A stretch of DNA of 30,696 nucleotides from a virus: positions 1 through 30,696 of the IMG/VR virus record IMGVR_UViG_3300045135_000497. One strand, written 5' to 3'. This document shows, piece by piece, positions 1,442 through 22,126 of the stretch. The position numbers were made by a program, and so were the translations under genes. Below the pieces are notes generated by a model. It was not told the origin of the DNA. It did no database searches and was given only the letters and a program-made list of their open reading frames with translations. Position 1 is the first letter of the stretch. Each line of letters opens with the position of its first letter.

Positions 1442-2157
1442 TCACATATAAAGACCATATGGAGATCTCTAAGGGACTTTCTATTGATGATGATGGTAAG
1501 GTATCACTTGGAAATAAAAACCTCTTAGAGAAGCTAGAATTAATTAAGGAGATAGACAATGTGTATCCACTTAGAGACAGTAAGAGGATTACTCCATACA
1601 TTGCAGAGAAGTTTACGGTGTGCAGTAGCGTGAAGACAATGGTGCTTGGGCAGTTCATTATGGTCGAGCAAATACTCACGGGCAAAGAAAAGTTCAATAG
1701 TGATGAGGAAATGGAACTTGCACTACTGCAACTTTTGTTGCGACCTAAACACCACAAGGAGTTTGACAACACCAACCCAAGTGATGAACAACAAAATAAA
1801 GAGGATATCTTAAACTCTCCTATTCAAGACACCTACAACATCTTAAACAGGTACTTGTCAAACAGAGAACAAGTACTCTTCAAAGAATTTGCTGGGGTAT
1901 TCTACGAGGTAAACGATGAAACCGAAGAGATTGAAGAGAAGACCGAGGTAGATGATCACACCGTGGGTAGAAACTTTTACCAGCAATGGTACTGGTACTC
2001 AATTGTAAGGACTCTAGGTAAGGAAGACATAAGGGTTTATCCCGATATCTATATGCTGAAGATGGAGGTAGTACTGCCTGAGATGAGTTACTTGGCACAG
2101 AAGAATAAAGTAGAATCTGCACAGCAAAGACAAGACGCTGCCCTAAGTAAATTGTAA
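1438..2157 (+). CDS. Putative tail assembly chaperone-like protein
   Basis: A 239-residue acidic protein that starts within the terL stop (ATGA). The C-terminal part has an aromatic patch FYQQWYWYS (about residues 180-190) followed by a helical, Lys/Glu-rich tail. I associate a W-x-WYS patch followed by a charged helix with proteins encoded just before tape measure genes in Bacteroidota phages, which act as tail assembly chaperones. That match is from memory, so the call is tentative. It lies three genes upstream of the tape measure gene. I did not see a convincing slippery frameshift site. Its stop codon lies inside the recurrent TTGTAAATTA motif. Confidence 0.45.
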   Translation: MITYKDHMEISKGLSIDDDGKVSLGNKNLLEKLELIKEIDNVYPLRDSKRITPYIAEKFTVCSSVKTMVLGQFIMVEQILTGKEKFNSDEEMELALLQLLLRPKHHKEFDNTNPSDEQQNKEDILNSPIQDTYNILNRYLSNREQVLFKEFAGVFYEVNDETEEIEEKTEVDDHTVGRNFYQQWYWYSIVRTLGKEDIRVYPDIYMLKMEVVLPEMSYLAQKNKVESAQQRQDAALSKL

Positions 2158-2163
2158 ATTATA
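2152..2163 (+). promoter_or_regulatory. TTGTAAATTA motif, copy 1
   Basis: TTGTAAATTATA sits at the junction of the chaperone-like gene and the next gene; its TAA is the stop codon of the former. The next ATG is 10 nt downstream. It is one of six copies at structural gene boundaries. Its role is unknown; a late promoter element or a translation/processing signal are both possible. Confidence 0.45.
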
Positions 2164-2173
2164 AAAAATTGAT

Positions 2174-2614
2174 ATGAACAATCTTTCGCAATTTTACGAT
2201 GTGGTAAAAGACTTTTGCGAGTCCCACAACATGATTAACGAGTTCTTCTTGCTTGGCTCAAAGGATGACCTATCATCGAGAGAGTTTGAATACAGAACCT
2301 TCGTTATGATTCCGAACAGATCTAACATATCGAGAGATTTAGCAAGGCCAATCTATACATTGACTTTTGATTGTTTGGTTATAGACAAGTCTAAGAACCA
2401 AGACTCTTTAGCAGCAATCAAGTCTACAGAAGAAAACCTATTTGTCGTAGGTCAGCTCCAAGACTTTTTGATACAGCAAGATGAAAACTGCTACATTGAT
2501 GAAGTAGATGTAGAAAGTTATATGGGAGAAGATGAGAACATTACGACTGCATTCTTCTCGTTAACGGTAGCCTTTGCTAGAAAAAATTATAATGTTGCTA
2601 TAGATAATGCTTAG
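2174..2614 (+). CDS. Putative neck / tail completion protein
   Basis: A 146-residue acidic protein with alternating strands and helices. Its position between terL and the tape measure gene, its size, and its tight coupling to the next gene (8 nt overlap) fit a tail terminator or tail completion protein that joins tail to head. No diagnostic motif was found, so the role comes from synteny and size only. The ATG is preceded by an A-rich tract, as is common for flavobacterial phage genes without a Shine-Dalgarno sequence. Confidence 0.45.
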   Translation: MNNLSQFYDVVKDFCESHNMINEFFLLGSKDDLSSREFEYRTFVMIPNRSNISRDLARPIYTLTFDCLVIDKSKNQDSLAAIKSTEENLFVVGQLQDFLIQQDENCYIDEVDVESYMGEDENITTAFFSLTVAFARKNYNVAIDNA

Positions 2615-3221
2615 TCCAGCACAGCAAAGAGGTAGGCTCAGACAACTTATAATTAGGGAGCTGAAGACTGCCGATTTGAAAGGATATTTTAAGTCGTTGT
2701 TGAGAGAGAACGAACAAGATGTTACTGGGTTTCTACAGAGAAGTATTTCCTCTAGTAGATACGAAACCTCTGTAACCGTAAGGTCTAGTGTGAATAGTCA
2801 ATCTGGGTGGATAGAAGACATACAGATATTTTTAGGCACTGGCCCTTGGGGTAGGTACGGTAACGAACTTGACAGCAAGTTTGGTGTGGGTGCGGTGAAA
2901 GACCCACCGAACACCGAAACAATTATGCAATGGATAAACGCAAAAGGTGTTACTGCTATACTGTCCGTTGATAAGACGCTGAAAAGCGGTGAGAAGAAAC
3001 AATACACATATGTAAACACCCTTTCCGCAAAGAAGGCAATGGCTTATCATATCGCTAAAAGAATTAGAGATACGAGAAGCATAAAGACTAGATACGATTA
3101 CACTAGCAGCATTGAAGAAGTTTTTTCAAGCATAGTATACCAATCATTGTTTTACTGGTTTGAGGAAATGGGCGTAGAATTTTTAGGAAGGATAGAAACT
3201 GAAATTACAGGATTAGTATAA
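2607..3221 (+). CDS. Putative HK97 gp10-like neck protein
   Basis: A 204-residue basic protein. A helical N-terminus is followed by a middle segment with GTGPWGRYG and a Gly/Pro-rich loop (about residues 75-100), then a C-terminal helix. The presence of a basic helix plus a W-G-x-YG region just upstream of the tape measure gene is reminiscent of head-tail joining (HK97 gp10-type) proteins. The resemblance is weak and not proven here. It overlaps the preceding gene by 8 nt and is separated from the tape measure ATG by a single base. Confidence 0.45.
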   Translation: MLSPAQQRGRLRQLIIRELKTADLKGYFKSLLRENEQDVTGFLQRSISSSRYETSVTVRSSVNSQSGWIEDIQIFLGTGPWGRYGNELDSKFGVGAVKDPPNTETIMQWINAKGVTAILSVDKTLKSGEKKQYTYVNTLSAKKAMAYHIAKRIRDTRSIKTRYDYTSSIEEVFSSIVYQSLFYWFEEMGVEFLGRIETEITGLV

Positions 3222-3222
3222 C

Positions 3223-6200
3223 ATGGCAGATTTAAGCAACTTCGGACCAGGAAACTTTGGTGGAGGATCATCTTCTAGTGGCGGTGGCAGCGGCCAAGGA
3301 GCGTTAGAAGCAAAAGTAGGTGCATTAAAAGCTGGTCTACAGTCTTTGAACGTAGCCATCAATGATTTACGCCAACAAGGTGTAGGGGGAGGTCTTATCT
3401 TTGAGGCGTTAGCAGAGAAGATATCTCAAATGCTCATTGCTCAAAAGGCATTGACTACAGAACTAGAGCAGCAGAAAATCGTATTCAAGGACAATGCTGA
3501 TCAGTTAGAGGTATACACAAAACTTCAAGGACAACTACAGACAAACATTGACGGTACTGTAAAGGCAGTCAGTTCTTTAACCAAGGAGCAACTTGAAAAT
3601 TCTAAGAGAGCGCAGAAGGTAGCCAATGATGCTGCATTAGCTAGACAAGAATCCAACAAAGTACAAGAGCAGTCTGAGTTATCTTTACTTGACCAAATTA
3701 AGTTAAGGGTTGCTCGTGAGCAAAGAGAGGCCGAAGCGCAGAAAAAAATACTTGAGGAAAGAGAAGCGCAACGCAGACAAGCAGCAGCTGAAGAACAGCA
3801 AAGACTTCGTGATAGTATCAAGGAGCAGAATGCAATTCGTTCCAAAGAGGTTTCTGATTTTGAGGCTAGACAAAAAGAGCTAAGAAGCAGAAGAAAGGCT
3901 AGACAAAGAGAAATTGAACAAGAGCAGAAAGCTGCTTCTAGGGCAAAGATTGAAGCCGATTTAAAGGTTATACGATCAAGCAAAAAGTCTTTAAGAGAAA
4001 GGCTAGATGATGAGATAAAATACCTCAAGGAAGTACAGAAACGCTACAAAGAAGGTAGCGCAGAGTTTGAAAAGTTTAGAGGTAGAATTGCTCAAGCTGA
4101 AGGCCGTAGAAGAGATGATAGTTTTGGTAGTGGATTCTTAAAAGGACTCACTGGCGGTGGTGGACTTGGCAAGGCTTTAGGTAGACTTACTGGTATTGGC
4201 ACGGCAGTCCAAGCACTAAGAAAGACATTCCAACTTTTACAAAGGGCAATTACCGGGTCGTTTAGGGCGGCAGTAGACTTTGAGGCACAGATGGCTCAAC
4301 TACAAGCGGTAACGGGTATTAACAACGAGGAACTTTCTAGACTTCGTAAAAATGTACTTGATGTTGCTGGTAGTACTAAGTTTACCTCTGAGGAAATTGT
4401 ACAGCTCCAAACAGAGCTTGGTAAGTTAGGTTTTAGTGTTACTGAAATTGAAGCGGCTACACTTGCTGTGGCTCGTACAGCACAAGCACTTGGTGAAAAG
4501 GTTGGACCAGTAGCACAGCGTATTGGTCAAATCCTTAACCAGTTTAATCTTAGCGCAGCTGAAACCACTCGTGTATCAGATAGCCTTGTATCGGTGATTA
4601 ACTCTTCGGCACTTTCATTTGAAGGCTTTAGTACTGCATTGCAATACATTGGGCCTCTTGGAGCGCAAGTGGGTACTACATTTGAAGAGACTGCTGTAGC
4701 CATGGCACTCTTGGCCGATAACGGTTTTACCGCATCTCGTATCGGTACAGGTCTTCGTGGTATTATGACTGAACTATCTAAGACTGGTAAAGACCTAAAC
4801 ACTACTATAGAGGAATTAGCAGAACAAGAAGTTACACTTGCTGAAGCTGTTGACTTGGTAGGTAAGCGTAATGCGGCACAGCTTATTACTCTTGTAGATA
4901 CAGCTCGTAGACAAAGAGAAGTAGGGCAGTCGTTAGATGACCTCAACGATAAATACTTTGCCCAGGGTTCTGCGGCTATCGCTGCATCGCAGCAGGTAGA
5001 TACCTTCCAAGGTAACTTAGACCTTTTAAAATCTGCCATCAACCGTGTGCAAATTGCTTTTGGGGAGTTTCTAAAAACAAGTAAGGTTCTTAGAGCTGCG
5101 CTTAGACTTGTTGATGAAGATGGTTATGCAGCAGCTGTTGCGGCTCAAGCCATTGCAGAAGCCGATCCCATGACATTTAGTCAAGGGCTTCAAGAGGCAT
5201 CTGAGTCTGTAGGTAAGCTTAAACAACAATTAGCAGATACTAAAGATATTGATGCTGCTATAAACGAAGCTGCTAAAGGAATATTTGGTGGAATTGTAGA
5301 AAACATAGAACGTGAAATTCAAGCCATTGATGATAGGGAAGAAGCTATAAAGGAAGAACAGAAAGCTTATCTTGAGGGACTAAAAGAAAGAGCTGATGCG
5401 TTAGAGGCTCAAGGGAAAAAAGAGGAAGCGGAATTACTTAGAAGAGTAGAAGCTAACCTTGGTGCTGCGAGAAAACTACAGTCTGGATATGCTGCTACTG
5501 CGGATGTTGATTTATACACAAGCAAAGAATTTAATGAAGCAAAAGCAGAATATGGCAAGTACTCAAAAGAAATAGCTGATAACAATAAAGAAAGAATTAG
5601 GTTATTAGATATTCTTGAGCAAAAGGAAAAAGAATTAATTCCTGGTAACCCAGAGTTTGAAGAGTATGAAAAGCAAATTGCTTACGTTAAGCAGTTGATT
5701 GCAGAAGGAGCTTTAGAAGAAGCCTTGGCTATCGAAAGAAATTTAGTCGAGCAAGAAAGAGCTGCTATATTAAAGCAATTAAGAGCAGAAAGAAAAGATG
5801 ATATTAACGACCTACAATCTGCTGTTGACTTTAACAAGAAGATTAACAAGGAAGATATAGCCATAACCAAAAAAATAAATGCGCTTCTTGCAGAACAAAC
5901 AAGAAGAAAAGAAGAAGGCAATGAAATTGTAGGTGATGAACTTCTTTTATTTGAGGCAAAATTAGAACAGTACAGAACTGAAAAAAATAATATTGCTAAC
6001 TTAACCGTAACTCTTGAAGAAAGAAACCAATTAGCTCAAAAAGAATTTGAAAGAGAATTTAAAAGAATAACCAACCTAAAAACCGCTAGAAAGCAAGAGC
6101 TTGATCAAAAACAAGCCCTGCTAGATATAGAGATAGATACTCAAAGAAACCTAGCAAATAACGCAGCAACAGAAGAGAAAAGAATTGCGGCAAGTGAAGA

Positions 6201-7536
6201 ATTAGATAAGCTTATTCAACAAAGACTTCAAAACGAAATTGATGCCTTCAATGACTTAGATAGTGTTGCAACTGAGTTTAGCGAGACACTAGAGGGCATG
6301 GCCGATTTGTTTGAAGAGGCTGGTCTCGATGGCAGTATAATTGAAAAGGCTCAAGAAAGATTAGAAGGATTTAGACTTAGTTTTCAAGACCTAGCCTTAG
6401 ACTTAGGGGATATCAAAGGTGCTGCAAATTCTTTAGCAGATTCTTTAGAGGCAGCATTTAAAGTTAAATTAGATTCTGGTACAGAGCTAGATGAAGCAGA
6501 TTTAGAAAAGGTAAAGGAGCAAGTCAGGGCTATGCTTAGAAGACTTTTACCTGCTTTAGAAATTCTTTATCCAGATGTATTTGAGGCTCTATATCAGAAA
6601 ACTGAAGACCTTGTAATGTCTCAGCTTATTCCTGATCCTAAGAAGGGCGAGAAAAAACGTAGGGACAGAATTAAAAAGCTTCTTGATGTTGTTCTTAAAG
6701 AACTTGCAGATGCTGCTAAAGCGTACAATGATACTGCATTAGAAAACACTAGGAACAGATTAAACGCAGAGCTTGATGCTATCCGCAACAGATACAAGAC
6801 TGAAGAAGAAATATTAAAGTCTCAGTTAGACAACCAGTTAATTACAGAGTCTCAGTTTAGAACGAAAAAAGAAGAGCTTAGAAAAAAAGAACTTCAACAA
6901 ACAAATGAAGTCAACAAAGCGATTTTCGATGCAGAGAAAAAGGCAGACCTTAATAATGTTGCTATAGAAGCATTCGAGGCAATAGCATCCAACTTGATAA
7001 ACAACATGGGTAAGCTTACAACTCCAGAAGCTACTCGTCAAGCAGCCATTGGTTATGCTGCGATTGTCGCTGGTGCTGCTGCTAAAGCAGATGCAATTAG
7101 AAGAAGAAAATTCTACCCTGTACAGTTTGAAGAAGGGGGTTTTGTACAAGGGCCAAGCCACTCTGAAGGCGGTGTTCCATTTACTGTGCAAGGGCAACCT
7201 GGATATGAAATGGAAGGCGGTGAGTTTATCGTAAACAAAAAGGCTGCTGCGTTCCATAGAAGTTTACTAGAACGTATCAATGGATCATACAAGCCTAACA
7301 CATCTATTCAGCCGTTGCAATTTGCTCAAGGAGGTATAATACAAAAGCCATCTTCTGCTAGTATAAATGTAGATACAGGTGTAGCAGAAAGTGTACATTA
7401 TTTAAGAGCCATTGCTGAAGCTACTACTACCTCGGCAATCCAAGGTTCTAAACCTGTAAGGGCTTATGTTACTGAAAGAGATTTAAGATCAAGTGATACG
7501 GCTAGACAATTAAAAGATAGAAATAGTAGAATATGA
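3223..7536 (+). CDS. Tail tape measure protein (TP901 core)
   Basis: This 1437-residue protein sets tail length and is expelled during DNA injection. Residues about 130-300 are a long Arg/Lys/Glu/Gln coiled coil. A Gly-rich hinge (about 302-340) leads to the TP901-type core at about 345-520, with the typical AVDFEAQMAQLQAVTG start and the GFTASRIGTGLRG helix near its end. A second long coiled coil covers about 690-1000. A small hydrophobic Ala/Gly segment lies near 1275-1293. The C-terminus has EEGGFVQGPSHSEGG and EMEGGEFIVN, typical of tape measure C-termini in this phage group. With no sheath gene seen, a long flexible tail is likely. It couples to the next gene through ATGA. Confidence 0.93.
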   Translation: MADLSNFGPGNFGGGSSSSGGGSGQGALEAKVGALKAGLQSLNVAINDLRQQGVGGGLIFEALAEKISQMLIAQKALTTELEQQKIVFKDNADQLEVYTKLQGQLQTNIDGTVKAVSSLTKEQLENSKRAQKVANDAALARQESNKVQEQSELSLLDQIKLRVAREQREAEAQKKILEEREAQRRQAAAEEQQRLRDSIKEQNAIRSKEVSDFEARQKELRSRRKARQREIEQEQKAASRAKIEADLKVIRSSKKSLRERLDDEIKYLKEVQKRYKEGSAEFEKFRGRIAQAEGRRRDDSFGSGFLKGLTGGGGLGKALGRLTGIGTAVQALRKTFQLLQRAITGSFRAAVDFEAQMAQLQAVTGINNEELSRLRKNVLDVAGSTKFTSEEIVQLQTELGKLGFSVTEIEAATLAVARTAQALGEKVGPVAQRIGQILNQFNLSAAETTRVSDSLVSVINSSALSFEGFSTALQYIGPLGAQVGTTFEETAVAMALLADNGFTASRIGTGLRGIMTELSKTGKDLNTTIEELAEQEVTLAEAVDLVGKRNAAQLITLVDTARRQREVGQSLDDLNDKYFAQGSAAIAASQQVDTFQGNLDLLKSAINRVQIAFGEFLKTSKVLRAALRLVDEDGYAAAVAAQAIAEADPMTFSQGLQEASESVGKLKQQLADTKDIDAAINEAAKGIFGGIVENIEREIQAIDDREEAIKEEQKAYLEGLKERADALEAQGKKEEAELLRRVEANLGAARKLQSGYAATADVDLYTSKEFNEAKAEYGKYSKEIADNNKERIRLLDILEQKEKELIPGNPEFEEYEKQIAYVKQLIAEGALEEALAIERNLVEQERAAILKQLRAERKDDINDLQSAVDFNKKINKEDIAITKKINALLAEQTRRKEEGNEIVGDELLLFEAKLEQYRTEKNNIANLTVTLEERNQLAQKEFEREFKRITNLKTARKQELDQKQALLDIEIDTQRNLANNAATEEKRIAASEELDKLIQQRLQNEIDAFNDLDSVATEFSETLEGMADLFEEAGLDGSIIEKAQERLEGFRLSFQDLALDLGDIKGAANSLADSLEAAFKVKLDSGTELDEADLEKVKEQVRAMLRRLLPALEILYPDVFEALYQKTEDLVMSQLIPDPKKGEKKRRDRIKKLLDVVLKELADAAKAYNDTALENTRNRLNAELDAIRNRYKTEEEILKSQLDNQLITESQFRTKKEELRKKELQQTNEVNKAIFDAEKKADLNNVAIEAFEAIASNLINNMGKLTTPEATRQAAIGYAAIVAGAAAKADAIRRRKFYPVQFEEGGFVQGPSHSEGGVPFTVQGQPGYEMEGGEFIVNKKAAAFHRSLLERINGSYKPNTSIQPLQFAQGGIIQKPSSASINVDTGVAESVHYLRAIAEATTTSAIQGSKPVRAYVTERDLRSSDTARQLKDRNSRI

Positions 7537-8117
7537 GTAACTTTGGATTCCTAACAACAACTTCTGGGAACATAGCACCACAAGCTGTGAACGTGACAGT
7601 AAGAGCTAACACGGCTTCTTTAGATGTGTTTGCAGATGTAATTGCTCGTGATGTTATACATATGCGATATAGAGAAAACGGTATACCAAAGGGCGTTTAT
7701 GGGGTGTGTACATACGCTGACATGGACGGGGTTGTTCCAAGCTTTACCTTTACTTTTGACCAAAATATATATCCATTGTTTTCTGACGTATCTCAAGGAG
7801 ATTTTTTAGGAATAGAGGTATATAGACAAATAGAACACAATAAGGTTTCTTACTATTCTATTTCAACATCTGTAACCAGAGCAAATTACAGCGAAGAGTT
7901 AAAATCTTACAACGTTTCGCTTGATCATTCCTTGACTATTAACAATGACGGCAGAGAATTTTTTGGAGACTTTAAAGATGTTATTGTTGCAGACAAAATA
8001 ATCTTTGCAGATTACTGTGATAATTATGCATATGGAGTATCTTTAGATGAAGATACTTACAACAATAGATACAATAAGTTTAGAAAATCAGTAAGCTTTA
8101 ACGTAGCGAAAAGATGA
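7533..8117 (+). CDS. Putative distal tail / baseplate protein
   Basis: A 194-residue, strand-rich protein encoded directly after the tape measure gene, where distal tail (Dit-type) proteins usually lie. No motif proves the family. It begins within the tape measure stop (ATGA) and ends by overlapping the next gene in the same way. This three-gene coupling suggests balanced synthesis of tail-tip parts. It could instead be a small hub subunit. Confidence 0.5.
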   Translation: MSNFGFLTTTSGNIAPQAVNVTVRANTASLDVFADVIARDVIHMRYRENGIPKGVYGVCTYADMDGVVPSFTFTFDQNIYPLFSDVSQGDFLGIEVYRQIEHNKVSYYSISTSVTRANYSEELKSYNVSLDHSLTINNDGREFFGDFKDVIVADKIIFADYCDNYAYGVSLDEDTYNNRYNKFRKSVSFNVAKR

Positions 8118-10792
8118 GTTTTACTTTATCAATAAGTTCAAATGCGGTTTCATTTGTTGATGCTGATTTGTTTGAAGGAGAAGAGTTTTTCTATGATGTA
8201 TCATTTTATGATGATGCTTCAATAAAAGATGTTAAGATACCTTTTTATACAAGTCTAACATTACCTCTGACCCCTACCAACAAGTCTATCTTTGGTTACG
8301 ATCCAATAAACACAAACGTGAGTTCGTTTCCCAGCGGTGACTATCATTTTATTATTTCTTACCACAATTCATTTAATACTGAAATAAGAGGTATAATGAC
8401 GGTTGATTCAATAGAATACAATTCTGATCAGCCATATATGAGTGTTACCTTAAAAGATTACCTCTCATTATTTTTCTCAGAACTTTCGGAAAAAAAGTTA
8501 GGAGATATACTTACTTCATCTTACCACACATCTAACCACCCCTTATCAGATTTTTTTAAAACTACTGCAAATAATGGGGAGGCAGGAGTCGCAGGTCAAG
8601 ATCCAGACTTAACACGCATTGTAAACTTTCCATTCGTGGATATGTGTAACGATGTAGAAAAGTTTGACTATGAAACAAGACAGTTTACCGAATATGGCTC
8701 TGGAGAAACTAGGTCTGGGTTTATTCCAACACTCTCTGTTAAAAACTACTTAAAGCAAGTTGGTGAGTATTTATCTACTTCTAATATCCCGGTAAAGGTA
8801 AAATCAAAACTATTTGGCATTAATGAATCTGAGGCCATACCAGACTTTCAGCCATCAAAGTTACAGGCTGTAATACCAGCAAAGTTACAAGCCAAAAGAG
8901 GATTTAATACAAGAAACTTTACTTTGTATAACAGATTTGATACTGCATTTCCAAATGAGGACATGACAGAAAACAAAAATCTGTTTGGTAATCAAAGGCA
9001 ACTAAGAACAAATTATTATGGGAAGTATACTGTTTTTGGTCATTACGGCACTATTCCAGCAAACTACAACCCAATTAAAAAACACGCCCTTGAATGGCCT
9101 GATGACGGATATGTAGATTCATCTGTAGATACTTCTGGAGAAAAGGGATATATCTCTCCCCACACAAGTTTTGGAGCAGAGATATCATTTGCCAGTGGAA
9201 ACAGAACAGAAACAATAGGGACTTTGACTTGGGAGTTACCTGTCGTTGACGAAGAAAAAATGGTTTACAAAATATTCCCTAACAACTCAGACATGAGTTT
9301 TAATTTAAAGCTTGGGATATTTGTAGATGGATATTTAACTAAGTCTATAGGAATGTTAGATTCCAATGGAGATAAACTTGAATTAAATGCCCAAAACGCA
9401 ACAGTAACACAGTCTAATGCTGTAAAGTCTAGCGCAGATATTCCTACCGTTGGAAATTTCTTTGGTTTGACATCTGGGAGTTTGGCCTATCTAGATGATA
9501 GCAGTTTTCCAAACTATAATGATTCTTTGCAATGGAACAATATAGAAGTTTATCTTCCAAACGAAGAAAGATTTATTGATTTAATTGGAGACAGTAGATA
9601 TGGAATGTGTTATTATCTAGAGCCTTTAGAGGGATCGTTAGACATAACATATGCCGATCAATGGTATGCTGTATCTCCGTCTCCAATGACTGGTTATACG
9701 GTATACTATAATGGGAATATAGTAAATTCTGATTTCGGGCCACTTAAAATAAGAAAGGCAATAACGAAGATATCTAATTACACCGACTTTGATATTAAGT
9801 TTACAGCAAACAGAGACTTTTCACCTTACTATCCAGATGATAGATATAACATAAAAGACTCTATAAACAATACTTGTGATATTAAAGTCCCTGAGTTTTT
9901 AGATATAATTACAAAAAGATTTGGCTGTGGTATATTCTATGAATATGATGGCTCTCATCATATTTTAAGAATAGATCCGCTACATATTTTAAGAACCTCT
10001 AATGTTAATATTGACAGCAGGATAGATGATTTAAATTCTATAGTTGTATCAAGACCTATAGAAATAATTAAAAACTTAGTAATAACCAATGAGGGCAATG
10101 ATTTGTTTTATGACTCTGTAAGGTATAAAGAAACTACTAGGGGTTCTACTACACAAGAAATCAATCCAAACGGTATTAATGATTTTGAATTAAAACTAGA
10201 TTCTGCTGTTTATTATAAAACCTTATGCGGAGAAGATAACTCATTAACAAACGAGAATGTAATTAAGGGTTACTTGAACGAATATCAAATAGGTTATACT
10301 AAAAATATATTCACTCCTTACAATGAGTTTTCAGTTAGGTTCGCTTATATAGATAATCCATTGTTTCAGACTAAAATAAAAGTACCTTACATCGTAAACA
10401 ATAACGTTATAAATAACTTAACGACAACGACTCAAAGGCTTTATAGAAATATCTTTGACTATGTTACTTCTGAAGAACTTGATCCTCATGTGTTCAATGG
10501 TAGACTGTCAAATAAGAATACCGCTGGGTGGGATTTATTAGCAGAAGATGAAGATGAGCTTACTACTGATTATTACGATTTAATCGCATCTACAGAACAG
10601 TTAAAAACAAAACAATATCCGTCTATTGAATTTGATATGGTTGTTCCCGTAGGCGAACTAACAAATTCTGCATTTATGTTTAGCAAGGGAATATTGTCAT
10701 ATATAAACAATCAGAAAGTTTTAATTAAAGAAGCTAAAGGACAAGTTTATGATGACAATGCTTATCTGTCTGTCAAAGGTTTAATAGAATAA
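8114..10792 (+). CDS. Putative baseplate hub / tail tip protein
   Basis: A large 892-residue, strand-rich and aromatic-rich protein. The N-terminal 120 residues hold a beta-sandwich-like segment with the phrase FYTSLTLPLTPTN, which I recall from tail proteins of Bacteroidota phages. Later parts resemble the hub-type folds of tail-associated proteins. No lysozyme or peptidase motif was seen. Its position after the tape measure and Dit-like genes supports a baseplate hub/tail tip role. Codon use here is noticeably more A/T-ending (AGA, ATA, TTA) than in the capsid gene. Confidence 0.55.
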   Translation: MSFTLSISSNAVSFVDADLFEGEEFFYDVSFYDDASIKDVKIPFYTSLTLPLTPTNKSIFGYDPINTNVSSFPSGDYHFIISYHNSFNTEIRGIMTVDSIEYNSDQPYMSVTLKDYLSLFFSELSEKKLGDILTSSYHTSNHPLSDFFKTTANNGEAGVAGQDPDLTRIVNFPFVDMCNDVEKFDYETRQFTEYGSGETRSGFIPTLSVKNYLKQVGEYLSTSNIPVKVKSKLFGINESEAIPDFQPSKLQAVIPAKLQAKRGFNTRNFTLYNRFDTAFPNEDMTENKNLFGNQRQLRTNYYGKYTVFGHYGTIPANYNPIKKHALEWPDDGYVDSSVDTSGEKGYISPHTSFGAEISFASGNRTETIGTLTWELPVVDEEKMVYKIFPNNSDMSFNLKLGIFVDGYLTKSIGMLDSNGDKLELNAQNATVTQSNAVKSSADIPTVGNFFGLTSGSLAYLDDSSFPNYNDSLQWNNIEVYLPNEERFIDLIGDSRYGMCYYLEPLEGSLDITYADQWYAVSPSPMTGYTVYYNGNIVNSDFGPLKIRKAITKISNYTDFDIKFTANRDFSPYYPDDRYNIKDSINNTCDIKVPEFLDIITKRFGCGIFYEYDGSHHILRIDPLHILRTSNVNIDSRIDDLNSIVVSRPIEIIKNLVITNEGNDLFYDSVRYKETTRGSTTQEINPNGINDFELKLDSAVYYKTLCGEDNSLTNENVIKGYLNEYQIGYTKNIFTPYNEFSVRFAYIDNPLFQTKIKVPYIVNNNVINNLTTTTQRLYRNIFDYVTSEELDPHVFNGRLSNKNTAGWDLLAEDEDELTTDYYDLIASTEQLKTKQYPSIEFDMVVPVGELTNSAFMFSKGILSYINNQKVLIKEAKGQVYDDNAYLSVKGLIE

Positions 10793-10804
10793 TTGTAAAT
10801 TAAT
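10793..10804 (+). promoter_or_regulatory. TTGTAAATTA motif, copy 2
   Basis: TTGTAAATTAAT begins directly after the stop of the hub gene and ends only 3 nt before the next ATG at 10808. If it were a -10 element, the transcript would be leaderless or nearly so. Confidence 0.5.
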
Positions 10805-11200: not shown

Positions 11201-11270
11201 TAAGGCTAAACGTATACAGAAAGCTAAAGACAAATACAATCATCTTGTAGACAAGCTTAACGTAAAGTAA
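11190..11270 (+). CDS. Possible 26-residue basic micro-protein
   Basis: A short frame starts inside the end of the preceding gene and ends one base before the protease ATG. The predicted peptide is very basic (KSNKAKRIQKAKDKYN) and predicted helical. An AGGTCAAGG stretch lies just upstream. It fills an otherwise empty gap between two coupled genes, which favours it being real, but the length is too short for coding statistics. Confidence 0.4.
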   Translation: MKSNKAKRIQKAKDKYNHLVDKLNVK

Positions 11271-12327: not shown

Positions 12328-12339
12328 TTGTAAATTAAT
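12328..12339 (+). promoter_or_regulatory. TTGTAAATTA motif, copy 3
   Basis: TTGTAAATTAAT lies just after the protease stop and 31 nt before the major capsid ATG, inside an otherwise A/T-only leader containing a T-run (12350-12356). The spacing would suit a promoter -10 element with a short 5' leader. Confidence 0.5.
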
Positions 12340-12370: not shown

Positions 12371-13258
12371 ATGAGTGTATCTATTTCTAATTTGCCATAC
12401 GGAGATCGTAGACCAGACTTGTTCATCGACTCAATGGTAAAATCTGCTGCGGTTCTAAACCGTTTCCGCCTTATTGACGGAGTTAAAGCAAAAGTAAATG
12501 TGCCTATCTTTGATGCTCAGTTGACTTGGGGTAATGACCTTTGCCAATTTGATCCACAATCTACTGCTACTATTTCTGAAAAAGAAATGACAGTTGATAC
12601 TTACAAGTGGGCTTTCCTAAACTGTAAGACAGCTCTAGAGTCTTCTTACCGTGGTTTGTTGTTGAAGAAAGGTCAGCACAACCCTGAAACTATGGACGCT
12701 GAGTTCAAAGACTGGGTGTTTGACTACTTCGCAAAACTATCTGCTGAACGTGCTTTGCAACAAGCTTCTACTGAAATTATTGCTGAGTTGACTGCTGATG
12801 CTGCTGTTATCGACTACATTACTGGTGCGCCTATTACTGCGTTGAACGTACTTGACTTGATGGAAGGTGCTTACGCTGCAATGAGCGATGTAATGTTGGC
12901 TGCTATCTACGGTGATGCTGATCGTGATTTCAAACCAGCATTCTTCTTGGGAACTGCTGCTATGCAAAATTACCAAATCGCTATCGCTGAGAAATTCACT
13001 ACTACTCCACAAGGTATCATCGAGGGTAACATTCCTCCTTACTTTGGTATGGAAGTAGTTCACATGTCTTCTCTACCAGCTGATGAGTTTTTCGTGGCTG
13101 CTCCACAAAACTTGGTTATGTTGACTGATGACTACAACGATGTTCGTGCTATCGACATGAAGTACGAAGCTGAATTGTCTTCTGATAAGATTTGGGGTCA
13201 ATTCAAACTTGGCTTCTCTTACTTGAAAGGCGAAGAAATCGTTTACGCACATCAATAA
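12371..13258 (+). CDS. Major capsid protein (HK97-type)
   Basis: 295 residues forming the prohead shell. Position immediately after the protease/scaffold, a normal size, a C-terminal half with short strands and an N-terminal arm all fit an HK97-fold capsid protein. Codon use is strongly biased to GCT, CGT, AAC, TTC and TTG compared with neighbouring genes, which fits very high expression. The gene has its own motif-bearing leader and is followed by a strong intrinsic terminator. I did not see a conserved cleavage motif near the N-terminus. Confidence 0.85.
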   Translation: MSVSISNLPYGDRRPDLFIDSMVKSAAVLNRFRLIDGVKAKVNVPIFDAQLTWGNDLCQFDPQSTATISEKEMTVDTYKWAFLNCKTALESSYRGLLLKKGQHNPETMDAEFKDWVFDYFAKLSAERALQQASTEIIAELTADAAVIDYITGAPITALNVLDLMEGAYAAMSDVMLAAIYGDADRDFKPAFFLGTAAMQNYQIAIAEKFTTTPQGIIEGNIPPYFGMEVVHMSSLPADEFFVAAPQNLVMLTDDYNDVRAIDMKYEAELSSDKIWGQFKLGFSYLKGEEIVYAHQ

Positions 13259-13265
13259 TAGTTAG

Positions 13266-13290
13266 AGGGGAGGGAAGCCTCCCCTTTATT
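13266..13290 (+). terminator. Terminator after major capsid gene
   Basis: AGGGGAGG (13266-13273) pairs perfectly with CCTCCCCT (13278-13285) around a GAAG loop and is followed by TTATT. It lies 7 bases after the capsid stop. Confidence 0.8.
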
Positions 13291-13312
13291 AACCCTTAAA
13301 AACGAAAATAAA

Positions 13313-13861
13313 ATGCCTTGTAATTTAACTCTTGCTGATGTAACCTACGACTGTACTGACCTCGGTATTGGTGGGTTGAAAGCTGTATACCTTGCTAACC
13401 GTGATGAGCTTATCACTCAGAGCCTTGTAAGCGTTTCTGGTGGTGCTGCTACAGTAACTCCAGCTGCTGCTAACTTGTATGCTGATGGTGATGCTATCAA
13501 AATCGAGTTTAACTTGAAAGATGGTTTCTCTGTATTTACAGATGTAAAAACTGTATCTGCTGACGGTATTACTTCTACAGTACCTACTATTGCAATCGAA
13601 GTTCCTAAGATGTCTCCTGGACACCGTGATGCTTTGAACGCTATGGCTGTTGCTGGTTCTGAATTGGTTGCCTTTGTTGAAACTGCTGCTGGTACTTACC
13701 ACATGATTGGTTTTGATTACGGTCTATATGCTGCGACTGTTGATGGTACTTCAGGTACTGGTCGTGCAGAAAAGAACCGTTACCAATTGACTTTGACTGG
13801 TGACGAGGATAGCCTTGCATACCACCTAGATTCTGCTAACTGGGCTAATGTAGCCGGTTAA
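13313..13861 (+). CDS. Putative major tail tube protein
   Basis: A 182-residue, Ala/Thr/Val-rich beta protein encoded between two strong terminators and directly after the capsid gene, with similarly biased codon use (CGT, GCT, GGT), so it is probably a high-copy virion protein. Two N-terminal cysteines (C3, C14) precede a GIGGLKAVYL strand. The following gene encodes a paralogue with the same layout. The tail tube assignment rests on size, abundance signals and the absence of another candidate; a second capsid-associated protein is possible. Confidence 0.6.
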   Translation: MPCNLTLADVTYDCTDLGIGGLKAVYLANRDELITQSLVSVSGGAATVTPAAANLYADGDAIKIEFNLKDGFSVFTDVKTVSADGITSTVPTIAIEVPKMSPGHRDALNAMAVAGSELVAFVETAAGTYHMIGFDYGLYAATVDGTSGTGRAEKNRYQLTLTGDEDSLAYHLDSANWANVAG

Positions 13862-13868
13862 TAGAAAC

Positions 13869-13880
13869 TTGTAAATTAAT
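13869..13880 (+). promoter_or_regulatory. TTGTAAATTA motif, copy 4
   Basis: TTGTAAATTAAT lies 7 bases after the tube gene stop and immediately before the next terminator hairpin, 46 nt before the paralogue's ATG. A promoter here would sit upstream of a terminator, which argues for an RNA-level role at this copy. Confidence 0.45.
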
Positions 13881-13882: not shown

Positions 13883-13918
13883 AAGGGGGAGGGAGTAATC
13901 CCCTCCCCTTTTTTTTTA
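13883..13918 (+). terminator. Terminator after tube gene
   Basis: A G-rich arm (AAGGGGGAGGG, from 13883) pairs imperfectly with CCCCTCCCCTT (ending about 13910) around a short loop, followed by a run of T. It is similar in sequence to the hairpins at 13266 and 16451. Confidence 0.8.
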
Positions 13919-13926: not shown

Positions 13927-14439
13927 ATGAGTTTTAGTTGTAGCATTTTTTTAGAGGATATAGATATTAACTGCAATAATAATGTAGGGGGTATTAAGAA
14001 AGTGGTCTTGGGTCTTCAAAAAGATTTGAGCATTTCACTTGATCCTGCGGATGAAACAATTGTTACTCAAGCAGAGTTATTAAATTCTGTAGTATTTGAA
14101 CACAATAATAAAGATGCTACTACAATATTTAATGAGTCTAAAAGCGTAAATAACGGACTTGGTGTAATAACAACAGAGATAATTATAAGACTGCCACTAC
14201 TTGATGTAAAGATGAACAAGGTGGATTATATGTCTCGCAGAAACGACATTGTTTGTATTATGTACCACAATAACGGAACTGCTACTATTAGCGGTTGGAT
14301 GGATGGACTTACTATGCAGTATAGTGCAACAAGTGGTGCTTCAAGAAACGAATTGTCTCTTGTAGATGTTACTCTTTCTACTGATAGTTGGATAGCATCT
14401 TTTGCGGTTAACGATCCTAATATTATAACACTTCCGTAA
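13927..14439 (+). CDS. Tail tube-like paralogue
   Basis: 170 residues. The N-terminus repeats the layout of the preceding tube protein: C5 and C16 in the same spacing, then VGGIKKVVLG matching GIGGLKAVYL. The rest is beta-rich and ends in a VTLSTDSW strand. Codon use is more A/T-rich and Arg uses AGA, unlike its neighbour, so it is likely less expressed. It may be a minor tube, tail terminator-like or receptor-side tube subunit. It overlaps the next gene (TAATG). Confidence 0.6.
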   Translation: MSFSCSIFLEDIDINCNNNVGGIKKVVLGLQKDLSISLDPADETIVTQAELLNSVVFEHNNKDATTIFNESKSVNNGLGVITTEIIIRLPLLDVKMNKVDYMSRRNDIVCIMYHNNGTATISGWMDGLTMQYSATSGASRNELSLVDVTLSTDSWIASFAVNDPNIITLP

Positions 14440-14693: not shown

Positions 14694-14957
14694 ATGGATA
14701 ACAACATTACTAAAGACAGAAACTACTACCAGTCTTCTATGGGAGATTTTGGATTCCGTAGAATTGGCCCTGGTGAGACATCTCCTGGTGGAGAGACTTA
14801 CAGAGTTATTGTTTGCTTACAAGAGGCAAGTATCAATGCAGAGTCTATGGTTGGTGATTCTTTGACTGGACAAGTATTGCCTACAGGCATGCAGGTGTTT
14901 GGGAAGTTCACCGAGGTTTCTTGTTACCAAGGAGTTGTGTTAGCTTACTTGGGATGA
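14694..14957 (+). CDS. Small beta-rich structural protein
   Basis: 87 residues. It begins immediately after the preceding stop. Phrases such as FRRIGPGETSPGGETYRVI and a final VVLAYLG resemble a family of small beta-strand proteins encoded among phage tail genes, as I recall them, though I cannot name it. It ends in an ATGA overlap with the next micro-gene. A virion accessory role is inferred from context. Confidence 0.6.
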   Translation: MDNNITKDRNYYQSSMGDFGFRRIGPGETSPGGETYRVIVCLQEASINAESMVGDSLTGQVLPTGMQVFGKFTEVSCYQGVVLAYLG

Positions 14958-15088
14958 TATTAGCATTAGGCATATCTATACACGCCAATAATTTTATTGG
15001 AGACAAGTATGAGTTTGACAACAGATACTGGGATCGTATTGATATGAAATGGGAGACTATTAACGATACTTGGGAGGAAGAAATATAA
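14954..15088 (+). CDS. 44-residue Trp-heptad protein
   Basis: The frame starts in the stop of the previous gene (ATGA) and its stop overlaps the next ATG (TAATG). The N-terminus is hydrophobic (MILALGISIHANNFIG). The C-terminus repeats the W-x6-W-x6-W pattern (YWDRIDM, KWETIND, TWEEE) found at the end of the 84-residue protein encoded at 14439. Perfect coupling on both sides makes it likely to be translated. The function is unknown; a docking peptide or fibre anchor is a guess. Confidence 0.6.
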   Translation: MILALGISIHANNFIGDKYEFDNRYWDRIDMKWETINDTWEEEI

Positions 15089-16432: not shown

Positions 16433-16444
16433 TTGTAAATTAGT
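16433..16444 (+). promoter_or_regulatory. TTGTAAATTA motif, copy 5
   Basis: TTGTAAATTAGT lies a few bases after the stop of the 323-residue fibre-like gene and just before the next terminator, 53 nt before the large fibre's ATG. Confidence 0.45.
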
Positions 16445-16450
16445 AATAGA

Positions 16451-16478
16451 AGGGGGAGGGTTGATCCCTCCCCTTTTT
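16451..16478 (+). terminator. Terminator before large fibre gene
   Basis: GGGGAGGG (16453-16460) pairs perfectly with CCCTCCCC (16466-16473) around TTGAT, followed by TTTTT (16474-16478). It is nearly identical to the hairpins after the capsid and tube genes. Confidence 0.85.
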
Positions 16479-16497
16479 GTTAATCAAAAAAGATTTT

Positions 16498-19400
16498 ATG
16501 GCTGTTAAGTTTCTCAATGGTATTGATGTAGATGGTTCAATGAACATCGCTGCATCCGATGTCCCTAATTTAGATGCTTCTAAAATTACAAGCGGTACTC
16601 TTTCTGCTGATCGCATTCCTAACCTTAGTGGTGTGTACCAACCTGCAGGAGACTACCTTACTTTAGAAACTGCCAATACAACTTTTCAGCCACTTGGGAA
16701 TTACTTAACAAGTGTCCCTTCCGAGTATCTAACTCAAACCGAGGGTGATGCTCGTTATTTGCAAAGTTTACCTTCGCATAATCACGATGGAAGATACCTT
16801 AGAACAGGTGTTACATTAGGAAACTTTTCCGAAGTAGATGCTATAGAAGATGACAGAGTTGTAGGTTTAACAAATTATGATACTGCACCATTTGCGAATC
16901 ATAATATTGTAGCCACATTTATTAATCATGCCTCTGGAGGAAGAAGAGCGCAATTGTTTTTTGGGGATACTCCAAATGCAGGTGCTTGGTTTAGATTAAG
17001 ACAAGGAACTGGAGTTCAACACGATTGGTATAAAATTTGGAACTCCTTTGACTTTACATCCACCAATATTTCTAATTGGAATACTGCTTACGGATGGGGT
17101 AATCACGCTTCAGCAGGATACCTAACCTCACTACCTTCACACAACCACGACACATTATACGATGCTATCGGCTCTGCTAATGCAGTAGGTCAAGCATTGA
17201 ATGAGCGCATTGACACAGAAGTATTTGATGCTATCGCTTCGGTTCAAGCAACAGCCGATGCTGCACTACCCAAAAGCGGTGGTACTTTATATAAACAAAC
17301 AAATACAGCAGGTACATCCGGAACAACTTTCTTAACAGTACACAATAATGTAGGTGGTGATATTAGTCAGCAGCAGTCTTTTGTAGACTTTATGTTTACC
17401 GATACTAATGCTAACTTTACTCCACAAGTAAGAATAGGAGCGCAAGTAGGTAGAAACGCTGACGCTAACGCAATCTCCAAAGAAGGAGCAGGAGCATTCG
17501 TAGTTTACACAGGCGATGGTACTGATGAAAGCGGTAACGGTGCTTTGAGTGAGGCAATGAGAATTGGCTTTGATAATAAGTTATATGTTCAAGGTGAAAT
17601 TCAAGCGAGTGGTTATAATAAAACAAATTGGGATACAGCGTATGGATGGGGCAACCATGCTTCTGCTGGGTACTTGACATCTATCCCATCAACATATGCT
17701 ACCGATGCGGAGGTAAACACAGCCGTAGGTGCTGTTGATGCTCGTATAGACAACGAAGTTTTCCCTGCTATAAATGATTTAGGAAATGCAATCCCTACAA
17801 ATAACAATCAACTTACTAACGGTGCAGGATACGCAACTACATCATATGTAAACACAGCCGTATCAAACCTTGTAGCCTCTGCACCTGCAACATTAGACAC
17901 ACTCAACGAACTTGCTGCTGCATTAGGTGACGATGCAAACTTTAGCACAACTGTAGCAAACAATATTGGTGCTATTGATACTCGTATTAACGATGAGGTC
18001 ATTCCTTATATTGACAGCGTAGCCGGAGATGCTGCCAAAGGCGTAACTGCTTACGGATGGGGAAACCATGCGAGTGCAGGATATTTGACTTCGCTTCCTT
18101 CGCACACACACAATAAGATTGTCGAAAACGATGCCATAACATACGGACAAGGTTCTTTACAGTGGACTGATGTAAGTGGGCTTGGAGGAACTGGATATGC
18201 TGGTAGCACTCTTGCAAATCCATTTAATGATTGGCATCATCATATCTTAATGAACCATGCTAACAGTTCTGGATACTATGTTGACATGGCTTACTCTTTC
18301 CATAACGATAGAGTACACTTTAGAAGAAAAGCAGGTGGCGGTGATTCAAACCTTGGTACATGGAGAGAGTTTTGGCATACTGGCAATTTATCTAAATCAG
18401 AGTTTGATAGCGCAGGTTCTTCCGCAGCAGTTTCTACTGCCTTAAACGAGAGAATTGACACAGAGGTATTTGGTGCTATAGGGGATGTTGCAGGAACCAT
18501 TCCAACCAACAATAACCAACTTACTAACGGAGCAGGATACATTACATCTGCTGATGGAGGTAATGCCGATACTGTAGATGGATACCAAGCATCTCAACTT
18601 TGGAGAAGAACTGGAGCAACTAATGCAACCGTAGGTGGTGGATGGGTAACAGTTGCTCACGCAGGTCAAGGTGGAAGATGGTCTGGAGAAGTTATTGTTA
18701 CGGATGGAGAAAGTGGTGACCACTCATTCATTCGTATACACTGGATGCGTAGTTACCAAGATTCAAATTTTACCGTACTAAATTGTGGTGGACACGCAAA
18801 CAGAATTACTGGCGCAAGGGTATTGTACCAAACATCCGACAGTACATACGGATGGAAATACCTACAAGTATATGTAACAACATCTTCAAATTATTATGTT
18901 CGAATAACACAAGAAGGTGACACGCCAAACTTTAGCACTATTACAGCCGTTACTCCTGTAGTAGAAAATACTAAGAGTGGATATGCTGTTCACGGAAGTG
19001 AACTAACAGGGCTTGAAAACGCATCATTGGCCGCAGAAGAAGGCATTAAAGTTGGAGGTACTGTTTACACAAATTCACACGGAGATTCTTCTCAATGGAA
19101 CACCGCCTACGGTTGGGGTGACCATTCTGCCGCAGGGTACTTAACTTCTCTGCCATCTCATAATCACGATACATTATACGATTCATTAGGTTCTGCAAAT
19201 GCAGTTGCTACTGCCCTAAACGAAAGAATAGACACGGAGGTATTCGATGCTATTGCAACTGTAGATGGCAATATACCGACTAACAATAATCAACTTACTA
19301 ACGGTGCAGGATACATAACAGCAGTACCATCTTCCTTTACTACAACAAATATAACAGCAACAGGTTATATTAAAGGTGGTGGTCAGCAACTTGTATTGAG

Positions 19401-20592
19401 TGCAGGTGAGGCTCAAAACTATGCTACTGGGCAAACTGCCGAGTACATCTACATGAACGCAGAGCAGGGCCTTGAAATCAATTCCGATACAGGCAACTGG
19501 GCAGGTGGATGGGCTGCAAGAAAAACAGCATATCTAAGAGGTGATCAGTTAACTCTTGATGGAGAGACACTCACTAAAACCAATATTCAAAACTTTAAGA
19601 CTGCATATGGTTGGGGTAACCACGCAAGTGCAGGATACCTAACATCTATTCCTTCTACCTATGCAACTGATGCTGAGGTAGGCACAGCCGTAGGTGTTGT
19701 TGATGCTCGTATTAATGACGAGGTTATTCCTTATATAGATGTCGTAGCCGCAGATGCTTCTAAAGGTGCAGTTGCTCATGGATGGGGTGACCATTCTGCG
19801 GCAGGATATTTAACCTCTCTTCCTGCACATAACCACGATGGTTCATATGACCCTATTGGATCAGCAGATGCGGTAGCATTGCAAGTAAATACAAGAATTG
19901 ACCAAGAAGTTATTCCTTCAATTCCTACCAACAACAATCAGTTGCTTAATGGTGCAGGTTATATTACCGCAGTACCATCTTCTTTTAGCACAAACTCCAT
20001 AACAATAGGAAATGGCGTAACACTTAGCGAGTCTACTGATCGTGCTGATTTGTTAATGATTAAGAGTTCTACTTCTACTTGGGGTGGTCTTCAAATATCT
20101 AACACATCAAATGAGATTATATTCTCTATGATGGGAGATGGAACTACAGGTGGTATCTATGATGACCAAAACAGCGATTGGTTAATTCAATGGACTGAAA
20201 ACGCAGGTGTTAGATTATATCACAACGCAGGTGAAAAATTAACAACTACCTCAACAGGTGTATCTATTACAGGTGCTTTAGTAGCAAGTGGAGATGTTAC
20301 CGCATTCTCCGATGCTCGTGTTAAAGAAAATGTAGAGACTATTTCTAATGCACTTGAGTCTGTTAAGCAGATGAGAGGTGTTACTTACAATAAGATAGGC
20401 GAAGAGAAGCAGTCTGTAGGTGTTATAGCGCAAGAGTTAGAAGAGGTTGTACCACAACTTGTACATACTGATGAGGAAGGTATGAAGTCTGTAGCATACG
20501 GAAATATAACTGCTGTATTGATTGAGGCTCTTAAAGAGCAACAAGCACAAATCGAAGAATTAAAAGCAAGACTTGATGGCCTTACAAAGTAG
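16498..20592 (+). CDS. Large tail fibre with C-terminal Peptidase_S74 chaperone
   Basis: 1364 residues from the ATG at 16498 (MAVKFLNG); an earlier in-frame ATG at 16477 lies in the terminator-proximal leader. The body carries six copies of an AYGWGNHASAGYLTS unit (AHGWG in the last), several followed by PSHNHD, and intervening beta and coiled regions, typical of trimeric fibre shafts. The last ~94 residues are an intramolecular chaperone domain: SDARVKEN beginning at S1271, with GVIAQELEEVVP and a final helix. S74 domains fold the trimer and then self-cleave at the Ser; the SD.R.K pattern is intact. Receptor binding is the likely role. Confidence 0.88.
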   Translation: MAVKFLNGIDVDGSMNIAASDVPNLDASKITSGTLSADRIPNLSGVYQPAGDYLTLETANTTFQPLGNYLTSVPSEYLTQTEGDARYLQSLPSHNHDGRYLRTGVTLGNFSEVDAIEDDRVVGLTNYDTAPFANHNIVATFINHASGGRRAQLFFGDTPNAGAWFRLRQGTGVQHDWYKIWNSFDFTSTNISNWNTAYGWGNHASAGYLTSLPSHNHDTLYDAIGSANAVGQALNERIDTEVFDAIASVQATADAALPKSGGTLYKQTNTAGTSGTTFLTVHNNVGGDISQQQSFVDFMFTDTNANFTPQVRIGAQVGRNADANAISKEGAGAFVVYTGDGTDESGNGALSEAMRIGFDNKLYVQGEIQASGYNKTNWDTAYGWGNHASAGYLTSIPSTYATDAEVNTAVGAVDARIDNEVFPAINDLGNAIPTNNNQLTNGAGYATTSYVNTAVSNLVASAPATLDTLNELAAALGDDANFSTTVANNIGAIDTRINDEVIPYIDSVAGDAAKGVTAYGWGNHASAGYLTSLPSHTHNKIVENDAITYGQGSLQWTDVSGLGGTGYAGSTLANPFNDWHHHILMNHANSSGYYVDMAYSFHNDRVHFRRKAGGGDSNLGTWREFWHTGNLSKSEFDSAGSSAAVSTALNERIDTEVFGAIGDVAGTIPTNNNQLTNGAGYITSADGGNADTVDGYQASQLWRRTGATNATVGGGWVTVAHAGQGGRWSGEVIVTDGESGDHSFIRIHWMRSYQDSNFTVLNCGGHANRITGARVLYQTSDSTYGWKYLQVYVTTSSNYYVRITQEGDTPNFSTITAVTPVVENTKSGYAVHGSELTGLENASLAAEEGIKVGGTVYTNSHGDSSQWNTAYGWGDHSAAGYLTSLPSHNHDTLYDSLGSANAVATALNERIDTEVFDAIATVDGNIPTNNNQLTNGAGYITAVPSSFTTTNITATGYIKGGGQQLVLSAGEAQNYATGQTAEYIYMNAEQGLEINSDTGNWAGGWAARKTAYLRGDQLTLDGETLTKTNIQNFKTAYGWGNHASAGYLTSIPSTYATDAEVGTAVGVVDARINDEVIPYIDVVAADASKGAVAHGWGDHSAAGYLTSLPAHNHDGSYDPIGSADAVALQVNTRIDQEVIPSIPTNNNQLLNGAGYITAVPSSFSTNSITIGNGVTLSESTDRADLLMIKSSTSTWGGLQISNTSNEIIFSMMGDGTTGGIYDDQNSDWLIQWTENAGVRLYHNAGEKLTTTSTGVSITGALVASGDVTAFSDARVKENVETISNALESVKQMRGVTYNKIGEEKQSVGVIAQELEEVVPQLVHTDEEGMKSVAYGNITAVLIEALKEQQAQIEELKARLDGLTK
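17077..19841 (+). repeat. Six-copy protein repeat region inside the fibre gene
   Basis: Six TAYGWGNHASAGYLTS-type units lie at about 17085, 17637, 18048, 19104, 19601 and 19778. Copies one and four share the downstream NERIDTEVFDAI segment; copies two and five share IPSTYATDAEV. The codons differ between copies although the peptide is conserved, which suggests old duplication and selection for protein sequence rather than recent slippage. Confidence 0.75.
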
Positions 20593-21524: not shown

Positions 21525-21530
21525 ATAGGT

Positions 21531-21764
21531 ATGAAGAAGATTAGCGAAGAACAACTAAACGAGCTGAATCAATTGGTAAACACCATAAAGTTCGTAGGTA
21601 ACAAAGTAACAGAACTTTCTGTAGAAAAGTCTCGTGCAGTAGATGCGTACAAGCAACTGCAAGAAAGCCTTGAAGAAATGAAAGGTAAAATCCGTGAGGA
21701 ATTTGGAGACGTAGATATTGATTTGCAAACAGGAGAAGTTAAGGAGACACCCAAAGAAGAATAG
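21531..21764 (+). CDS. Small coiled-coil protein
   Basis: 77 residues, almost entirely a predicted coiled coil (EEQLNELNQLVNTIKFV and KQLQESLEEMKGKI), ending in DIDLQTGEVKETPKEE. Small Glu/Lys coiled-coil proteins with a DxxTGEV ending are frequent in phages; I do not know the function. It lies between the adhesin and portal modules. Confidence 0.65.
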   Translation: MKKISEEQLNELNQLVNTIKFVGNKVTELSVEKSRAVDAYKQLQESLEEMKGKIREEFGDVDIDLQTGEVKETPKEE

Positions 21765-21767
21765 TAA

Positions 21768-22112
21768 ATGAAAAGGTTAGTTAACAATACTATAAACACA
21801 TTGTCTTTTGTTAAAAGCATTAATTATGTTATTAATGACTTTGATGTTATACTGACTAAAGTAGTCGGTGATGAAGTATTGGAACTAAACAACCTTACAT
21901 CATTAAATGGGTTACCTGTTTGTAGCGACTTTATCAAATTAAACATTGATTTGTTGTCCAATAACTTAGAGGGTGGGGAATATTACCTCACCCTCGTTAA
22001 TGGAAATACCGAAACATCTTATCTATGTTTGGTAGAAACGCATCAAAATTCTAACGGAAGTACATCTGTAGATGAGGTTTACGGAGATACAGTTAAGTTC
22101 TCTCCTTATTAA
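21768..22112 (+). CDS. Unknown 114-residue protein
   Basis: Not recognised. It is beta-rich with a short hydrophobic N-terminus and a GGEYYLTLVNG strand pair followed by TSYLCLVETH. It starts 3 bases after the coiled-coil gene stop, so the two are probably cotranscribed. The TTGTAGATTATA motif copy follows its stop. A virion or head-proximal role is possible from its place before the portal. Confidence 0.6.
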   Translation: MKRLVNNTINTLSFVKSINYVINDFDVILTKVVGDEVLELNNLTSLNGLPVCSDFIKLNIDLLSNNLEGGEYYLTLVNGNTETSYLCLVETHQNSNGSTSVDEVYGDTVKFSPY

Positions 22113-22114
22113 TA

Positions 22115-22126
22115 TTGTAGATTATA
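22115..22126 (+). promoter_or_regulatory. TTGTAAATTA motif, copy 6 (variant TTGTAGATTA)
   Basis: TTGTAGATTATA ends 3 nt before the portal ATG. It differs from the common form by A to G at position 6 and matches the TATA ending of copy 1. Confidence 0.35.

Follow-up and report, generated by a model that had tools for sequence, protein, structure and literature searches.

A putative late promoter motif and a candidate gp55-like sigma factor in a group of small uncultured phages

Late transcription by means of gp55 and a promoter octamer is described as characteristic of T4-related phages, and in T4 it depends both on this sigma factor and on replication. The T4 late octamer is located at -13/-6, without a -35 element and with an AT-rich stretch downstream (PMC2988020). 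Departures from its sequence are known, as the late promoter of Aeromonas phage Aeh1 is a variant at -13/-12 (PMC2988020), and in cyanophages a late motif, NATAAATA, has been linked in silico to a gp55 homologue (PMC2984593). The flavobacterial sigma-A promoter is characterized by a -7 box TAnnTTTG (PMC9723704).

The motif TTGTAAATTA described here is, with a probability of about 0.8, a variant T4-type late promoter (a -10-type element), probably read by a gp55-like sigma factor encoded at 26280-26687 of the same phage. The locus resembles the T4 system, TATAAATA with gp55, in having an octamer in the likely -13/-6 register, no -35 element and an AT-rich downstream stretch, in the place of the motif before virion operons, and in a small phage-encoded putative sigma factor with only region 2. 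It differs in its consensus (TGTAAATT, with G at -12 and T at -6, and at the structural operons a preference for T at -14 and A at -5), in the phages that carry it (about 40 kb or less in the contigs seen, not T4-like, clamp and gp33 not recognised), and in that a late-type site precedes the operon of the sigma gene. No T4-type core genes were found. Membership of the T4 type is partial: the two have in common that no -35 element is conserved and that the sigma factor has a region-2 fold, whereas the octamer is a variant in which six of the eight bases match in the -13/-6 register. The cyanophage promoter is likewise a late motif of marine phages that was linked in silico to a homologue of gp55, but the consensus is another one and the phage groups are unrelated. 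Aeh1 provides a precedent for a gp55-family sigma factor with an altered upstream half of the octamer, although other bases are changed there and Aeh1, a relative of T4, has a genome of 233 kb. TAnnTTTG, the Bacteroidota sigma-A element that is likely to be part of the host's main promoter, is not matched by the motif; a scan of eight genomes for host sigma-A promoters (TTG-N-TAnnTTTG) gave mostly matches inside genes and provided no information on early promoters. A literature search with the 10-mer had no phage paper among the matches listed.

The sequence studied (the window, i.e. the whole stretch of DNA analysed) is a 30,696-base virus record from IMG/VR and carries genes for terminase, tape measure, XkdF-like protease, portal, tail fibre, endolysin, holin, RusA and a DnaB-like helicase. 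The genome in the window appears to be incomplete, as relatives reach up to 39.6 kb. The putative capsid protein, assigned from position and conservation and not from a family match, has 208 relatives in IMG/VR. In tblastn searches of the INPHARED phages no relatives of either the capsid or the sigma candidate could be identified among cultured phages, and megablast of the whole window against the same collection gave no match. A capsid search of GTDB genome contigs was also without a match, so that no host or prophage can be named. Relatives of the helicase are mostly from Flavobacterium and Riemerella phages, with one from a Tenacibaculum phage, which makes a Bacteroidota host likely. Most start codons lack a Shine-Dalgarno motif and many have A at -3, the same pattern as in Flavobacterium (PMC6847099). 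An Rfam scan of the window at gathering thresholds found no RNA family. The neighbouring genes 13313-13861 and 13927-14439 look like a duplicated virion protein gene, as both match the uncharacterised PHROG 19091. In addition, a short unlisted open reading frame of about 44 codons (14954-15088, plus strand) occupies the gap that runs from 14957 to the ATG at 15088; its translation runs MILALGISIHANNF...WETINDTWEEEI and repeats the WETIN..WE pattern of the gene ending at 14693.

The initial annotation of this DNA had placed the motif at six positions, each between two structural genes. All six could be recovered, five as exact copies and the one at 22115 as TTGTAGATTA, and all six lie in gaps, the copy at 2152 overlapping the preceding stop codon:

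2152-2161, plus strand: site 1, TTGTAAATTA (core TGTAAATT at 2153-2160), before the tail operon 2174-10792
10793-10802, plus strand: site 2, TTGTAAATTA, before 10808-12324, which includes the XkdF-like protease
12328-12337, plus strand: site 3, TTGTAAATTA, exact in all relatives checked, before the putative major capsid gene 12371-13258
13869-13878, plus strand: site 4, TTGTAAATTA
16433-16442, plus strand: site 5, TTGTAAATTA, followed by the tail-fibre gene 16498-20592
22115-22124, plus strand: site 6, TTGTAGATTA, before the portal gene

A sixth exact copy (27047-27056) is found on the minus strand; this site and a copy of the core at 26025-26034, also on the minus strand, were absent from the initial annotation, and both are conserved. 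On both strands together, the six exact copies compare with a mean of 0.26 in shuffled sequences (sd 0.46, maximum 2). When one mismatch is allowed, the count of nine against 6.6 expected is not unusual in itself, and the evidence therefore rests on exactness, position and conservation. In the late block (185-25059), gaps make up 510 of the 24,875 nt (2.05%), the remaining 98% being coding. The plus-strand copies begin -6 to +7 nt from the upstream stop codon and end 5, 5, 12, 33, 48 and 55 nt before the next ATG; the two nearest had been given as 3 nt away, and the measured distance is 5 nt. In the longer gaps, the motif adjoins the upstream stop codon and not the downstream ATG.

The same six boundaries carry the motif, as six syntenic classes, in 80 loci of capsid relatives, where 131 distinct exact contexts were found on the late strand versus 1 on the opposite strand; with 40 further contigs these numbers become 187 and 3. 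The 10-mer TTGTAAATTA is the most context-diverse one of the relatives' sequences. Frequencies within genes and in gaps are far from equal, since on the late strand of the relatives no exact copy lies in the 711 kb of called coding sequence, versus 160 distinct copies in 30 kb of gaps. The capsid gap has the exact 10-mer in every locus checked, and the gap of site 6, which has TTGTAGATTA in the window, carries TTGTAAATTA in relatives. In the relatives the motif lies -6 to +11 nt from upstream stop codons and 4 to 70 nt from start codons. Most gene boundaries within the same operons have no copy of it.

Upstream of the motif, no -35 element could be identified, as no position 10 to 50 nt upstream exceeded 0.41 bits (160 contexts). 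Positions 10-15 downstream are AT-rich. At position 15, 125 of the 132 distinct sites have an A, which is the majority base in all six unrelated contexts; as sites within one class are homologous, this counts as about six independent observations and not as 132. Position 15 corresponds to +1 or +2 in T4 numbering, and T4-type spacing predicts +1 within one base. From this we infer that transcription starts at the conserved A, 15 bases after the first base of the motif. The predicted starts are as follows:

A 2167, plus strand: site 1, with a 7-nt leader before ATG 2174; conserved in class c1 (A at position 15 in 14/14)
A of ATG 10808, plus strand: site 2, leaderless (24/26)
A 12343, plus strand: site 3, leader of about 28 nt, A/U-rich (35/35)
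A 13884, plus strand: site 4, hairpin immediately after (35/36)
A 16448, plus strand: site 5, at the base of a hairpin (9/9)
A of ATG 22130, plus strand: site 6, leaderless portal mRNA (8/12)

Starts at the A of the ATG of gene 10808 and of the portal gene would yield leaderless mRNAs, a minority type of 5.5% in flavobacteria (PMC9723704). Initiation at the same position would give the capsid gene its 28-nt A/U-rich leader, and the mRNAs from sites 4 and 5 would begin with a hairpin at the very 5' end. The reading as a late promoter, raised in the initial annotation from the likeness to the T4 late -10 element, is backed by the strand asymmetry, the place before operons, the conservation, and the register of the octamer together with a conserved A where the start would be expected.

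Two copies had also been described as lying just before terminators, and hairpins do follow sites 4 and 5, beginning at or next to the predicted +1:

13885-13918, plus strand: stem-loop and T-run, starting 1 nt after the predicted +1 of site 4, with a covarying stem
16448-16483, plus strand: stem-loop and T-run, at the predicted +1 of site 5

In the first of these stems, four of nine pairs show two-sided changes. One of the nine sequences of the site 5 set (L019) is without the hairpin, and belongs to class c1. After the other site classes no hairpin was found. A terminator-like hairpin at 13259-13312 (GAGGGGAGGGAAGCCTCCCC) follows the putative capsid gene without a motif, which indicates that the hairpins are not tied to the promoter. 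A 5'-terminal hairpin may protect the mRNA or attenuate it.

The two minus-strand sites flank the candidate sigma gene on the same strand, and both lie within coding sequence:

27047-27056, minus strand: site 7, TTGTAAATTA, inside a small open reading frame upstream of the sigma operon, with a predicted start at 27041
26870-27088, minus strand: small open reading frame carrying site 7 (NYHTCKLKRE...)
26025-26034, minus strand: site 8, ATGTAAATTA (core TGTAAATT at 26026-26033), upstream of 25801-25995 and the holin, with a predicted start near 26019
25304-25669, minus strand: holin (phrog_3427, 1.8e-18), presumably driven by site 8

In 53 of the 80 sigma loci an exact copy of site 7 is present, 370-389 nt ahead of the start of sigma. 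As site 7 encodes T-C-K-L, the use of synonymous codons could be compared. Among 51 distinct sequences, the codons at the site are TGT for C (51/51), AAA for K (50/50), TTA for L (48/48) and ATT for I (37/37), while elsewhere in this open reading frame TTA accounts for 23 of 195 L codons and AAA for 46 of 104 K codons. Nearly all other conserved residues of the frame vary synonymously; none under the motif core does. Judged by these codon counts, site 7 is under a constraint at the DNA or RNA level within coding sequence. In sequences without the exact 10-mer, TGTAAATT is retained as the core, and the preceding base is changed to C or G or the following base to T; one sequence (L166) breaks the core, as TGTACATT. 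Site 8 is found about 250 nt after the sigma stop codon, and in 68 of 74 loci a copy of the core occurs no more than 900 nt beyond the sigma gene, with 70 copies in the forward and 0 in the reverse orientation. In some lineages the sequence after site 8 has been replaced and the motif kept, and in the relative G003 the site 8 motif precedes an amidase and a holin. Core TGTAAATT is nearly invariant at these coding sites, and from sites 7 and 8 together the invariant core is therefore 8 bp. At position 1653 (minus strand) of G003, in L109, TTGTAGATTA is present in the gap just before an exonuclease VIII-like gene, and may be a further site or chance.

The protein between these sites, and its neighbour, are the following:

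26280-26687, minus strand: gp55-like late sigma factor candidate, 135 aa, probable reader of the octamer
26656-26880, minus strand: companion protein, 74 aa, three-helix, directly upstream, overlapping the sigma start and conserved beside sigma

No match of the sigma candidate was found in PHROG and Pfam, and a PDB sequence search gave nothing usable. Its structure as predicted by AF2 (pLDDT 81.7) shows a sigma region-2 fold without regions 3-4, and by both methods used the top PDB match of the model is T4 gp55 in the gp55-RNAP-promoter complex (7d7c_F; VIA Z 12.8 over 91 residues, rmsd 1.7 A; Foldseek probability 1.00, TMq 0.59), other sigma region-2 domains scoring Z 10.6 and below. A gp55-like nature of this small protein is thus supported by the model. 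Against a profile of seven gp55 proteins the candidate gives a weak match (hhalign probability 7%, P-value 0.0047); the T4 gp55 query matched the T4 record at 100%, and record sequences only were used in the comparisons. Of 14 related records, 7 carry a homologue, the five longest being among these, and the gp55-like proteins of relatives are at least 61% identical to the copy in the window. With regard to a clamp epitope, the C-terminus, DDYTSRKL, has no visible likeness to the T4 end, and the model is poor for the final residues. Neither of the T4 co-activators gp33 and gp45 could be found, and no clamp was identified among the scanned early and lysis proteins of G003, a possibly incomplete record. 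Fold matches of the companion protein (TetR-type, sigma3 and sigma4, the best VIA rows being TetR-type and sigma3-like) are not significant, and an assignment as gp33 or sigma4 was rejected for that reason. It is possible that the companion is a split-sigma partner or a co-regulator.

Other explanations of the motif were weighed against recognition by the gp55-like protein. One is that the octamer serves as a late promoter for another sigma factor, either a second phage sigma-like protein with region 4 or an alternative sigma factor of the host. G003 does encode such a protein in its early region (L109:2794-3525, minus strand, 244 aa; Sigma70_r4, E 2.8e-6; PHROG sigma factor), 30-58% identical among relatives, and matches were found in 14 other records (G002, L087, L150, L154, L158, L161, L163, L198, L200, L209, L223, L233, L247 and L258), with L087 being the closest relative by sigma protein. 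Region 4, however, implies contact with a -35 element, and no upstream element is conserved; furthermore, the second protein diverges to about 30% identity, whereas the octamer is invariant and the gp55-like protein retains at least 61%, and a match to gp55 fits a promoter that consists of the octamer only. We consider this explanation rather unlikely. As relatives encode a second sigma-70-like protein, a two-sigma cascade is suggested in a phage of about 40 kb. The initial annotation had also proposed an RNA or translation signal, for instance a cleavage or processing site in a polycistronic late mRNA or an element that acts in translation at the borders between genes. Strict directionality, nearness to upstream stop codons (-6 to +11 nt) and the two copies abutting hairpins, one of them covarying, would agree with this, but the motif is missing at most gene boundaries of the same operons, other site classes have no hairpin downstream, the motif resembles the -10 octamer of the very sigma family that the phage encodes, and on the minus strand it is found ahead of the sigma and lysis operons as well. 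An RNA signal is thereby quite improbable, and a translation signal in particular was judged unlikely because the distance to the ATG ranges between 4 and 70 nt.

Chance, in the form of an AT-rich string favoured after TAA stop codons, could appeal to the AT-rich genome, to the stop codon within TTGTAA and to the unremarkable one-mismatch count; it is refuted by the excess of exact copies, the strand bias, the conservation over 80 contigs and the synonymous invariance, and its probability is negligible. Sites 4 and 5 may still differ from the others, as promoters of very short terminated RNAs or as 3'-end pieces of the upstream operon, since a perfect stem with a T-run after it starts right at the predicted +1, which is odd for driving the next gene, and a similar hairpin without motif follows the capsid gene. 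For these two sites such a role is conceivable but doubtful, as the downstream genes show no alternative promoter element and as the motif and the A at +1 are no less strictly conserved here than elsewhere.

With the octamer as a late promoter, the gp55-like sigma factor and host RNA polymerase would recognise the core TGTAAATT at -13 to -6 and fire six structural units on the plus strand. Site 7 would drive the operon that contains sigma itself, giving positive feedback, and site 8 would drive the lysis genes, placing lysis under late control. Tentatively, we propose a compact, self-amplifying switch for phages of about 40 kb, in which the gp55-like sigma2 and its helix-turn-helix companion, encoded next to each other, form a split sigma expressed from its own site 7, firing six virion operons and the lysis cassette, with the 5' ends of at least four virion mRNAs set deliberately (leaderless or flush with a hairpin).

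The synonymous codons frozen over 51 distinct genes provide a sharp prediction, and the motif is usable for calling late operons in many uncultured contigs. If the late-promoter reading is true, this late switch would exist outside the T4 lineage, in small unrelated marine phages that probably infect Bacteroidota, and would give a sigma-promoter pair for hosts with few genetic tools.
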